From the NCBI GenBank assembly GCA_947470515.1, contig CANITF010000004.1, forward strand, positions 62,001 through 126,000: DNA of 64,000 nt, in the 5' to 3' direction. Positions within the stretch are counted from its first letter, which is position 1. Each line of letters begins with the position of its first letter. This DNA comes from Flavobacteriales bacterium. GTDB lineage: Bacteria > Bacteroidota > Bacteroidia > Flavobacteriales_D > Crocinitomicaceae. The position numbers and the translations under genes are program-made. Positions 37,545 through 40,123 of the stretch are shown in pieces. The notes under the pieces are model-generated. The model did not search any database and had not been told where the DNA came from. It saw only the letters and a list, made by a program, of their open reading frames with translations.

Positions 37545-38471
37545 TTATTTTTTAAAATTTAATATTTGTTGCCTCAAATACGGCCAGTAATTGGCAATAA
37601 ATACACCAATCAATACGATTCCCATAGCCCCAATTTGACTCCAACCAATGTATTCTTGAAAATAAACGCCAATGACGACAGCAACAATTGGGATGAAATA
37701 AGTAACACTGCTTGCAAATAAAGCCGAAGAATAACTTATTACTTGGTTGAAGATGATGACAGCCAAAGCAGTTCCGAATACTGCTAAAATGGCTATATAG
37801 CCCAATCCATCGAAAGCATGTTTGTTCGTTTTTAATGTTTCCCATGTCCCAAAATGAACATTTGCAAAAAACGCTGGAATCAAAACAATAAAAAATGCTA
37901 AAGATGTTATTTCAATTGCTTTGAACATTTGTAATGTGTGTTTTATAGTATTCAAACTTATTGCATATAAAAGAGTTGCCAAAACAATGGCGAAAATATG
38001 ATACCAATTTCCAGTTAATGACAAAACTTTCCCTGCAATCATTAATAATACAATTCCAATAGTGCCAATAACAACTCCTATGATTTGAATAAGTGAAAGT
38101 CGAATTTTAAAGACAAAGAATCCGATAAGTATTGTAAAGATTGGGGTAAAGCTATTCAGCATCCCTGCAAAACCAGATGAAAGACCTGTTTCTGCATAAG
38201 TAAATAAAAACGCTGGAAAAAAGTTGCCTGAAAACCCAACAATTGCAAGCATAAAAAATTGCTTCCATGTTTTGATTTTCTTTAAACTAAATAGTGCAAA
38301 AGGCACTAAAACTAACCCTGCAATTAACATTCTTAACGCGCCTACTTGGCCATCTGAAAAGATCAATTCGCCGTCGGTTGTGTACATTCCTTTTTTCATT
38401 AAAATAAATGAGCTTCCCCATACACACGAAAGTAAAATCAATAAGAGCCAACCTTTCATTTCTTTAGTCAT
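37545..38471 (-). CDS. EamA-family (drug/metabolite superfamily) transporter
   Basis: A 308-aa inner-membrane protein with ten predicted helices arranged as two EamA halves; the family hallmark [14 protein letters not shown] follows the first helix. Members export amino acids, metabolites or drugs; the substrate cannot be told from sequence. The first ATG, 38471, lies 4 nt after a perfect -7 element, so either the mRNA is leaderless or translation begins at Met5 (38459), which sits just before the first helix ([15 protein letters not shown]). It is divergent from the dcw cluster across 289 bp. Confidence 0.92.
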
Positions 38472-38483: not shown

Positions 38484-38586
38484 GCGGAAAGATTAAGATT
38501 CTTAATAAAAATCAGAAGCAATTTGAAATTGTTCATAAGCTATTAGTAAACTGTTGATAACCTAATCAACTCAAATTTGTTAAAAA

Positions 38587-38606
38587 ATTACCCACTATTA
38601 CCCACT
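38587..38606 (-). promoter_or_regulatory. Putative MraZ box pair upstream of the mraZ promoter
   Basis: Two perfect tandem copies of the 10-mer ATTACCCACT; on the minus strand each contains TGGGT, spaced 5 nt apart. MraZ of E. coli binds TGGGN repeats separated by 5 nt upstream of its own operon, so this fits autoregulation. Confidence 0.7.
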
Positions 38607-38651
38607 TTCTTCTAATTTACTAGTTTTTTGTGAGTTTGTGAAGAAAATTGA

Positions 38652-38680
38652 TTGCTTGTTTTGAAACAAAATTATCTTTG
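38652..38680 (+). promoter_or_regulatory. Promoter of the dcw cluster
   Basis: TTG at 38652-38654, an 18-nt spacer, TATCTTTG at 38673-38680. It gives a leader of about 75 nt before mraZ. Confidence 0.7.
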
Positions 38681-38712
38681 TGCCGTTATAATTTATCAAC
38701 AATTAGAAAACT

Positions 38713-38732
38713 AGTGGTAAAAAGTGGGAGAT
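38713..38732 (+). promoter_or_regulatory. Putative MraZ box pair downstream of the mraZ promoter
   Basis: AGTGGTAAAA followed directly by AGTGGGAGAT: two AGTGG boxes with a 10-bp period, as in the upstream pair but on the opposite strand. It lies within the predicted leader. Confidence 0.6.
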
Positions 38733-38760
38733 TTCCATTATTTTTACCCATTATTTAGTC

Positions 38761-39219
38761 ATGGCAGGATTAGTAGGAGAATTTGAAGTAAAGGTGGACG
38801 CAAAAGGGCGTTTTTTATTTCCTTCCGGTTTACGGAAGCAGCTTTCTCCTGCGACTCAAAGAGATTTCATGTTGAATAAAGGATTTGAAGACTGTTTGAC
38901 CTTGTATCCTCTTCCAGAGTGGGAGAAGATCAGTGAAAAACTAGCTAAAATGAATTTATTTAAACCAAAGAATCGTATGTTTTACCGCTTGTTTCATCAA
39001 GGGGCAAAATTGATTGCATTGGACAACGCCGGTCGAATCTTGGTTCCAACAGCTCACATGGAGCGTGTAGGTTTAAATCAAGATGTGATGCTTATTGCAT
39101 ACAACGACCGAATTGAAATTTGGGATAAATCTAAGTACTTCGATATTATCGAAGGCAACATGGCGGACTTCGCTGATTTGGCGGATGAAGTAATGGGTGA
39201 CTTAGATGATGGAGAATAG
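38761..39219 (+). CDS. mraZ: Transcriptional regulator / division protein MraZ
   Basis: A 152-aa AbrB-like DNA-binding protein of two MraZ domains. The first opens GEFEVKVDAKGRFLFPSGLRKQL; the second contains the matching LDNAGRILVPTAHMERVGL. MraZ proteins form ring oligomers and repress their own dcw operon. First gene of the cluster; it overlaps rsmH by 14 nt. Repeats of the MraZ-box type flank its promoter. Confidence 0.97.
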   Translation: MAGLVGEFEVKVDAKGRFLFPSGLRKQLSPATQRDFMLNKGFEDCLTLYPLPEWEKISEKLAKMNLFKPKNRMFYRLFHQGAKLIALDNAGRILVPTAHMERVGLNQDVMLIAYNDRIEIWDKSKYFDIIEGNMADFADLADEVMGDLDDGE

Positions 39220-40123
39220 TACTACGTATCACATACCAGTAATGTTAGATGAATGCATCGAAGGGTTGAATATCAATCCAGATGGCATTTATGTGGATGT
39301 TACATTCGGTGGTGGCGGACATTCAAGAGAGATTTACAAAAAATTAAGTAGCAAAGGAAAATTGATTGTTTTTGATCAAGATCCTGATGCAAAAGCAAAT
39401 GCTTGGGAAGCAGATAATTTTTATTTTATCGCGGCCAATTTTGCGTATATGTCCAATCATTTGCGGATGATGGGAATTAAACATGTTGATGGAATTCTTG
39501 CCGATTTAGGAGTTTCCTCCCATCAATTTGATATCGAATCGCGTGGTTTTTCTATTCGTGCTGACGCTCCTTTAGACATGCGAATGAATAAGTCAGGCGA
39601 GTTGTCGGCTTTCTCAGTTGTAAATGAATACGACGAACGCGAATTGATAAAAATCTTTAGAACTTTCGGAGAGTTACCTAATGCACGAAAAATCACGGAT
39701 CAAATCATGAAGAATCGTGCTTCTAAAAAGATAAAAACGACAAATCAATTAATGGAAATTTTGGGGAATTGTGCCCCGAAATTTAAAGAACATAAGTTTT
39801 TCGCTCAAGTTTTTCAAGCAATTCGAATTGAAGTGAACCAAGAATTGGAGGTGCTAAAATCATTCTTAGAACAAACGGAAGATTGCATCAAACCGAATGG
39901 GAGACTTGTAGTTATGTCTTACCATTCTTTGGAGGATAGACTCGTGAAAAATTACCTGAAACGTGGATCTATTCACGGTGAAATAACAAAAGACTTTTTT
40001 GGAAATGTCTTGAAGCCTTTTAACGAAGTAAATAGACATCCAATTGTTGCAGTAGAAGAAGAAATAGAGAGAAATACTCGAGCAAGAAGTGCCAAACTTA
40101 GAATAGCAGAGCGGAATGGCTGA
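39206..40123 (+). CDS. rsmH: 16S rRNA (cytosine(1402)-N(4))-methyltransferase
   Basis: Methylates C1402 in the ribosomal P site using S-adenosylmethionine. 305 aa starting YHIPVMLDECIEGL, with DVTFGGGGHSREI as the SAM site and GILADLGVSSHQFD and the FRADAPLDMRM-type motif (here SIRADAPLDMRMN) diagnostic. The C-terminal VVMSYHSLEDRLVKNYLK is also standard. The start overlaps mraZ; two adjacent ATGs (39206 and 39209) are possible. It overlaps the ftsL-like gene by 8 nt. Confidence 0.98.
   Translation: MMENSTTYHIPVMLDECIEGLNINPDGIYVDVTFGGGGHSREIYKKLSSKGKLIVFDQDPDAKANAWEADNFYFIAANFAYMSNHLRMMGIKHVDGILADLGVSSHQFDIESRGFSIRADAPLDMRMNKSGELSAFSVVNEYDERELIKIFRTFGELPNARKITDQIMKNRASKKIKTTNQLMEILGNCAPKFKEHKFFAQVFQAIRIEVNQELEVLKSFLEQTEDCIKPNGRLVVMSYHSLEDRLVKNYLKRGSIHGEITKDFFGNVLKPFNEVNRHPIVAVEEEIERNTRARSAKLRIAERNG

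Follow-up and report, generated by a model that had tools for sequence, protein, structure and literature searches.

The mraZ locus and its upstream region

The window, the whole stretch of 64,000 nucleotides that was analysed, contains mraZ at the head of a division and cell wall (dcw) gene cluster. The features of the locus are, in order of position:

37545-38471, minus strand: divergent gene, an EamA-type transporter by eye, with NCBIfam matches below the cut-offs
38530-38538 and 38552-38560 (within 38530..38560), minus strand: two more DnaA-box-like 9-mers of the kind found at 38693, TGTTCATAA and TGTTGATAA
38578-38586, minus strand: weaker 9-mer, TGTTAAAAA
38587-38606, minus strand: upstream MraZ-type box pair, AGTGGGTAAT twice on the minus strand (plus-strand letters ATTACCCACT twice)
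38592-38595 and 38602-38605, complement: GTGG cores of the upstream pair
38607-38661, no strand: spacer from the upstream pair to P1, constrained in length and poorly conserved in sequence
38662-38687, plus strand: candidate promoter P1, ECF-sigma-like, TGAAAC (38662-38667)-N16-CGTT (38684-38687), between the pairs
38673-38680, plus strand: -7 element TATCTTTG named in the preliminary description, present in the window and poorly conserved
38693-38701, plus strand: DnaA-box-like 9-mer TTATCAACA, with 12 nt between it and the first forward GTGG
38713-38732, plus strand: downstream MraZ-type box pair, AGTGGTAAAA and AGTGGGAGAT, with GTGG cores at 38714-38717 and 38724-38727
38739-38746, plus strand: candidate promoter P2, -7-like element TATTTTTA (TAnnTTTR), just outside the forward pair
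38761-39219, plus strand: mraZ, 152 aa, TIGR00242 with 118.9 bits (cut-off 98.35), 33% identical to E. coli MraZ
39206-40123, plus strand: rsmH (mraW), the next gene of the division and cell wall cluster, TIGR00006 with 326.9 bits (cut-off 154.3)

With TIGR00242 and TIGR00006 both scoring above their cut-offs, the gene is a genuine mraZ that heads a dcw cluster. The open frames after rsmH resemble FtsL, FtsI and MurE by eye. Among the PDB entries for MraZ, 1n0e, 9qlr, 9qlg, 9sx6 and others were matched by sequence.

The letters of the window bear out two MraZ-type box pairs with a 10-bp period, as proposed in the preliminary description. The pairs point outwards on either side of the region between them (<-<- promoter region ->->), and both share the 10-bp period and the GTGG core with the boxes of E. 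coli. The 20-bp blocks of the two pairs lie 126 bp apart from centre to centre, which agrees with the distance given previously; between the GTGG core pairs (38592-38605 and 38714-38727) the same measure is 122 bp.

The pattern GTGG[GT]N4[AG]GTGG[GT] matched in the window only at the two pairs upstream of mraZ. The strict pair pattern GTGGKNNNNRGTGGK had exactly two matches in the assembly of 2,988,986 bases (58 contigs), both at mraZ. A reversed control pattern also matched twice in the same assembly, so about two strict pairs per genome are expected by chance, but not both at mraZ. In mononucleotide shuffles of the corresponding 75-bp stretch, a strict reverse pair arose in 7 of 33,600 cases. 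A chance origin of the pairs was rejected on the basis of the genome pattern count, the shuffles and the conservation within the family of the window described below. A wider MraZ regulon in this genome was likewise discarded as far as the strict pattern goes: it matches nowhere but at mraZ, which fits a narrow autoregulator.

Conservation of both box pairs among relatives

Families are labelled f1, f2 and so on, f1 being the family of the window, which we infer to be the Crocinitomicaceae. Relatives came from a family-level sample (200 genomes with matches in 190, from which 30 loci were taken), a contig-level sample (the best 80 of 225 loci, assigned to f1 by similarity of at least 82% identity in MraZ and not by typed family), an order-level sample (150 genomes, 148 with a match), a phylum-level sample (148 genomes, 137 with a match, 40 of the 137 fetched) and further family searches centred on the genomes G201, G208 and G200. 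The regions fetched comprised 60 chosen from the family and order sets and 20 longer ones for a tree. A first upstream set consisted of 75 distinct full-length regions from 110 loci (5 too short, 30 duplicates). The enlarged set consisted of 170 distinct sequences from 221; 111 of them represent f1, with 67 from the genome searches and 44 from the best-80-of-225 set alone.

The preliminary description had let its reading stand or fall with the conservation of both pairs in close relatives. This check, when run, found both strict pairs in 74 of the 75 regions of the first set and in 110 of the 111 distinct f1 regions of the enlarged set. The exception in each case, L003, retains the reverse pair and has GTAG in place of one forward GTGG; each of the 110 f1 regions whose forward array was scored has the strict reverse pair, and so does L003. 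The forward pair is near-invariant in the f1 and f3 consensus, its GTGG letters being fixed by the anchor pattern itself. The flanks of the upstream pair show little conservation.

In the other families, the reverse pair was scored in its strict form 70-160 bp before the last forward box. It was found in 27/29 f3 sequences, in all sequences of f10 (3/3), f2 (2/2), f6 (1/1) and f11 (1/1) and in 1/6 of f9. Within the same 70-160 bp it was absent from f4 (0/7), f5 (0/2), f7 (0/1), f8 (0/3) and f12 (0/4). One f8 and one f12 sequence have a more distant reverse pair, at 176 and 199 bp, and a single reverse CCCAC is located near the expected place in 4/4 f12 sequences and in both f3 exceptions. The split families f1, f3, f6, f10 and f2 possess 2-3 forward and 2 reverse boxes. 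Four tandem forward boxes with no reverse pair in reach characterize f4, f5, f8 and 4/6 of f9. Among the 40 further Bacteroidota loci, two contain a reverse pair (f14 and f37) and the remaining sequences have 2-4 forward boxes, most often 3. Most other sampled Bacteroidota have a forward cluster only, usually of 3-4 tandem boxes. Some f16 loci, L201 and L206 for example, showed by eye a further GTGG box 21 bp before three tandem boxes, with the 9-mer between.

The upstream pair lies 115 bp upstream of the start of the divergent EamA-type transporter gene, and its boxes read along the coding strand of that gene, which would be expected if the pair belonged to the transporter and not to mraZ. 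The transporter gene was detected, however, in only 65 of the 119 loci with both pairs, and the pair near mraZ is kept in the other 54 (25 of f1 and 29 of f3, f10 and f2, where short contig ends may hide some transporters). The reverse pair thus follows mraZ and not this neighbour. Together with the poor conservation of the 58 bp before the pair, this makes an operator of the divergent gene very unlikely.

Hardly credible is a role of the inverted repeats as RNA, in a hairpin or terminator, instead of as protein sites. The two arms are indeed inverse complements at many positions, but the fifth box base varies independently on the two sides: in f1, forward TT occurs with reverse GG in 22 sequences, and in f3, forward GG occurs with reverse TG in 13. 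Consequently, the arms are not kept complementary as a hairpin would need. Moreover, the upstream arm precedes both P1 and P2 and hence would be absent from their transcripts.

Candidate promoters

A promoter with -33 and -7 elements had been proposed between the pairs (38652-38680). The letters of its TTG and of TATCTTTG are present in the window, but their conservation is poor: TAnnTTTG occurs at the place of 38673-38680 in 17/111 f1 sequences, and in combination with TTG at N16-24 in 11/111. It was therefore rejected as a conserved promoter.

Candidate promoter P1, also between the pairs, is better conserved. The motif TGnAAC-N15-17-CGT was found in 82/111 f1 and 19/29 f3 sequences, in 4/10 of f2, f6, f10, f11 and f12 together and in 0/19 of f4, f5, f7, f8 and f9; this strict form is missing in 29/111 f1 and 10/29 f3 sequences. 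The spacing from TGnAAC to CGT is 16 in 61 f1 and 13 f3 sequences and 17 in 21 f1 and 6 f3 sequences. TGnAAC-N16/17-CGT is, as we take it, similar to the promoters of ECF sigma factors, e.g. sigma-W, sigma-M and sigma-X of Bacillus. P1 of the window (TGAAAC-N16-CGTT) fits this consensus, which is that of the Bacillus ECF sigmas; SigP, an ECF factor of P. gingivalis, has a predicted motif that does not resemble P1 (PMC4800418). A looser ECF-like pattern appeared in 9 of 2800 shuffles. Sequences with both this looser motif and the reverse pair number 116, while 3 have only the motif and 31 only the reverse pair. Because the sequences are related, this co-occurrence is a family-level association. 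Where the motif was found, the distance from P1 to the forward pair is nearly fixed, and that from TGnAAC to the 9-mer is 31-32 nt in 86/90 f1 and 19/19 f3 sequences.

Candidate promoter P2 is defined by its -7-like element, whose first base lies 15 nt beyond that of the last forward GTGG core. In the stretch searched after the forward pair, TAnnTTTR was present in 108/111 f1 and 29/29 f3 sequences, in 6/10 of f2, f6, f10, f11 and f12 and in 8/19 of f4, f5, f7, f8 and f9; the full TAnnTTTG was present at P2 in 1/111 f1 sequences. In several f16 sequences, a TAnnTTTG-like element likewise follows the forward boxes by eye. According to one study, TAnnTTTG is the -7 consensus of the main sigma factor of Bacteroidota, with TTTG near -33, although Flavobacterium johnsoniae yielded no such -33 part (PMC7366714). 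From the position of these elements after the forward boxes, the latter probably cover the -33 region of candidate P2, and the reverse pair is probably an addition upstream of candidate P1.

Beside the P2 element, TTTTTACCCAT at 38740-38750 is well conserved in f1. The minus strand of this stretch reads ATGGGTAAAAA, like a single reverse MraZ box.

A DnaA-box-like 9-mer upstream of the forward pair

The 9-mer TTATCAACA of the window differs from TTATNCACA, which is presumably the classical DnaA box. At this place the 111 f1 sequences contain TTATNAACA (98) or TTTTNAACA (13) and the 29 f3 sequences TTATNCACA (28) or TTTTNCACA (1); TTATNCACA was also found here in 2/2 f2 and 4/4 f12 sequences. 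The distance between the 9-mer and the forward pair is nearly fixed: from the start of the 9-mer to the first scored GTGG it amounts to 20-22 nt in 109/111 f1 and 26/29 f3 sequences and to 11 nt in f10 and f12.

The 9-mers together with their protein might organise the region and set the spacing, MraZ being only one of two interacting factors. In support of this, all scored sequences of f1-f12 and 11/12 of f16 have a 9-mer no more than 50 nt before the last forward boxes, and further copies occur upstream of the reverse pair in the 111 f1 sequences at 1.40 per 110 bp, compared to 0.055 in shuffles (about 25-fold). Nonetheless, we consider it improbable. The 9-mer is also present in the four-box families without an upstream pair, which leaves the split unexplained, and it was scored in none of the sequences of f13 (0/4), f14 (0/6) and f17 (0/2). 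Furthermore, no link to a replication origin was found in the dnaA neighbourhoods and same-strand tandems inspected. The dnaA neighbourhoods of eight other genomes contained no TTATNCACA and scattered copies of TTATNAACA (5, in 4/8), and the dnaA locus of the genome of the window (L268) contained neither. Same-strand tandems of TTATNCACA were absent in four genomes, and those of TTATNAACA occurred at 11 places in five genomes versus 10 for the reversed control.

Three of the loci with tandem 9-mers, L299, L304 and L305, come from three genomes of one f1 genus; in each, TTATCAACA 9-mers stand about 20 bp apart around position 1500-1530, just downstream of an fmt-like gene by eye. Just one further same-strand TTATNAACA tandem was found in the genome of the window (L306, contig C25, 1260-1289); it is located just upstream of an open frame resembling a LysM/glucosaminidase wall hydrolase by eye. 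In f14, another family of the Bacteroidia and not that of the window, TTATCCACA boxes were seen by eye upstream of tandem MraZ boxes (L197, L200, L207, L211 and L214), several of them in L197.

Spacing between the pairs

In the 110 f1 sequences, the spacer that separates the upstream pair from P1 has a length of 40-44 or 50-58 nt, with none of 45-49 nt; it was taken to run from where the CCAC core pair ends to a point 52 nt ahead of the forward GTGG. Its median identity in f1 pairs of equal length is 0.385, compared to 0.335 expected by composition. Measured from the reverse core to the last forward pair, the reverse-to-forward spacing takes values of 106-110 or 116-124 bp in f1 and 105-108, 117-119 or 128-129 bp in f3. 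It is 107 bp in f10, 118 bp in f6, 94 bp in f2 and 96 bp in one f9 genome. As the longer f1 class, at 116-124 bp, takes up most of one helical turn, the phase is only loosely kept.

Changes in spacing were reconstructed on a tree of MraZ and RsmH from 120 loci with both pairs (91 of f1, 24 of f3, 3 of f10 and 2 of f2), three more loci being left out for lack of RsmH. Ordered parsimony yielded 52 changes, of which 29 were of 1 bp, 12 of 2 bp, one of 4 bp and ten of at least 5 bp, a cut that was our own choice. These ten large changes measured 9, 10 (four times), 11 (twice), 12, 13 and 20 bp. In a Rayleigh test at 10.5 bp they gave R=0.79 and p=0.003 against sizes uniform between 5 and 20. The value became p=0.009 without the two root-adjacent events and p=0.02 when the three-box locus L235 was omitted too. 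At the midpoint root, the reconstructed change of -10 followed by +12 may represent a single event or none. A hand-picked set of seven events gave p=0.001, but the 13-bp change was also omitted from it, which favours phasing. R was nearly flat for periods from 9 to 12 (0.74-0.79): the steps are about 10-11 bp and the period is not fixed. A further point against phasing is that two of the five large changes in the control spacer from the forward pair to the ATG were likewise of 10 bp (5, 7, 10, 10 and 22 bp). In the sequences compared, the large changes between the pairs appear to come in steps of about one helical turn, as looping between the pairs predicts.

One-turn steps could also result from gain or loss of 10-bp boxes in a longer array, without any selection on helical phase. 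The 10-bp period of the boxes and a third forward box-like unit in 14 of the 120 tree tips agree with such a turnover. The steps remain, however, when the large changes are measured to the 9-mer, outside the box array (9 twice, 10 three times, 11 twice, 13, 20 and 23), and at the neighbouring place a remnant of a third reverse box turned up in 0/91 f1 and 1/24 f3 loci, which is a weak test. Box turnover is hence, in our estimate, quite improbable as the source of the steps.

Evolution of the split layout

A family tree of 37 MraZ and RsmH pairs had supports of 29-67 at its base, and the three outgroup loci (f13, f14 and f16) were not grouped and fell among the families of Flavobacteriales. With this poor base support and scattered outgroup, it is uncertain how often the split layout was gained, and only the well-supported nests are usable. 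In these, f2 with the split layout is sister to f5 with four tandem boxes (support 100), and the split f9 genome is nested among four-box f9 genomes (supports 94-100). This suggests at least three gains, when the f1- and f3-like families are counted as one, or several losses.

A proposed split operator and its possible looping

The boxes, their orientation and conservation, the constraint on spacer length and the turn-sized large changes in spacing are features of the sequences themselves. MraZ is the presumed ligand, judging from the type of box and the adjacent mraZ. On balance, we lean towards an autoregulatory operator of the dcw cluster that is divided into two inverted halves with two MraZ boxes in each, where MraZ on both pairs would loop the DNA round P1. 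MraZ would occupy the forward pair, covering the -33 region of P2, as well as the reverse pair, which lies about 12 helical turns further upstream. One ring or two rings would hold both pairs and thereby form a loop of about 105-130 bp containing P1, and P1 and P2, if active as promoters, would be repressed together in a negative feedback. MraZ relatives form rings. An octameric toroid is cited in a study on Burkholderia cenocepacia (PMC7761207). Box numbers trade off, with fewer forward boxes in the families that have the reverse pair, and this was counted in favour of a split operator. Points against the looped operator are the loose phase of the longer f1 class, the small set of ten reconstructed large changes and the lack of the P1 motif in part of the sequences.

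The operator might also be split without forming a loop, which we regard as possible though doubtful. MraZ on the upstream pair would then contact RNA polymerase at P1, resulting in activation or trapping, and MraZ on the forward pair would separately block P2 and elongation from P1, with the helical phase kept relative to P1. The nearly fixed distances from P1 to the 9-mer and from the 9-mer to the forward pair agree with this arrangement. With P1 at a near-fixed distance from the forward pair, the phase relative to P1 equals the phase relative to the forward pair, and operators with and without a loop look alike in this respect. The joint occurrence of the looser ECF-like motif and the reverse pair in 116 sequences, with the motif alone in 3, favours contacts at P1 as well, but 31 of the 147 sequences with a reverse pair, including those of f2 and of the split f9 genome, lack the motif. 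The lower number of forward boxes in the split families suggests instead that both sites serve one complex, and MraZ is reported as a repressor in E. coli (PMC8475190), which also counts against the operator without a loop.

For the looped operator, a more far-reaching scenario may be sketched, which we put forward tentatively and hold to be unlikely in its entirety. A ring of MraZ would loop about 95-130 bp over an ECF-type promoter with a DnaA-like site inside the loop, a switch that combines the autoregulation of division with envelope-stress and replication signals. The split would have arisen repeatedly from a four-box tandem, two boxes of which moved upstream in inverted orientation, in the family of the window and several related families of Flavobacteriales.

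Comparison with known systems

Few bacterial transcription factors are as widely conserved as MraZ. To our knowledge, the reason for its ring form is unclear. The promoter PmraZ of E. coli MG1655 (L193) resembles the locus described here in its GTGG-type boxes with a 10-bp period before mraZ, GTGGGAAATT, GTGGGGCAAA and GTGGGAATAA. In contrast to the 2+2 inverted boxes of the window, 122 bp apart, the three clean boxes of E. coli form one direct cluster, with no inverted pair in the 190 bp examined. The preliminary description was thus correct in setting the two-sided, inverted layout apart from the single E. coli cluster. For this organism, MraZ is reported to be an autorepressor (PMC8475190).

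The operator of B. cenocepacia is similar in consisting of four 7-nt repeats with 3-nt spacers (period 10) and a repeated GTG motif, and the repeats were proposed to lie inside a probe bound by MraZ in EMSA (PMC7761207). It differs in being a single cluster downstream of the -10 element that overlaps the start site. According to the same text, the upstream probe (-386 to -136) was unbound by MraZ, whereas the window has an upstream inverted pair (PMC7761207). Mollicutes possess direct AAAGTG[T/G] repeats, with no two-sided layout described in the available part of the source (PMC8475190). There, the motif of Mycoplasma genitalium MraZ is reported to have its sole occurrence at the mraZ promoter (PMC8475190).

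The locus of the window lacks the single, uniformly oriented cluster of 3-4 boxes that E. coli and B. cenocepacia have. With its two forward and two reverse boxes, the putative operator of the window is a variant of the known MraZ operator. No two-sided MraZ operator was found in the titles and the beginnings of abstracts of the literature searched; most subscription papers and bioRxiv were outside this search. A ring may be able to hold two segments of DNA simultaneously, and a naturally split, inverted operator with turn-sized changes in spacing offers a direct test of ring function. If looping holds true, a looping repressor, an ECF-like promoter and a DnaA-like site come together at the head of the dcw cluster.

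Repressors of the GalR/LacI type form loops between two operators about 110-120 bp apart that flank a promoter, in a phase-dependent manner. They act as tetramers or paired dimers on palindromic sites, whereas MraZ is a ring with the AbrB fold on directional 10-bp boxes. Judging from the layout and spacing of its boxes, this ring-shaped regulator may likewise tie DNA into a small loop.
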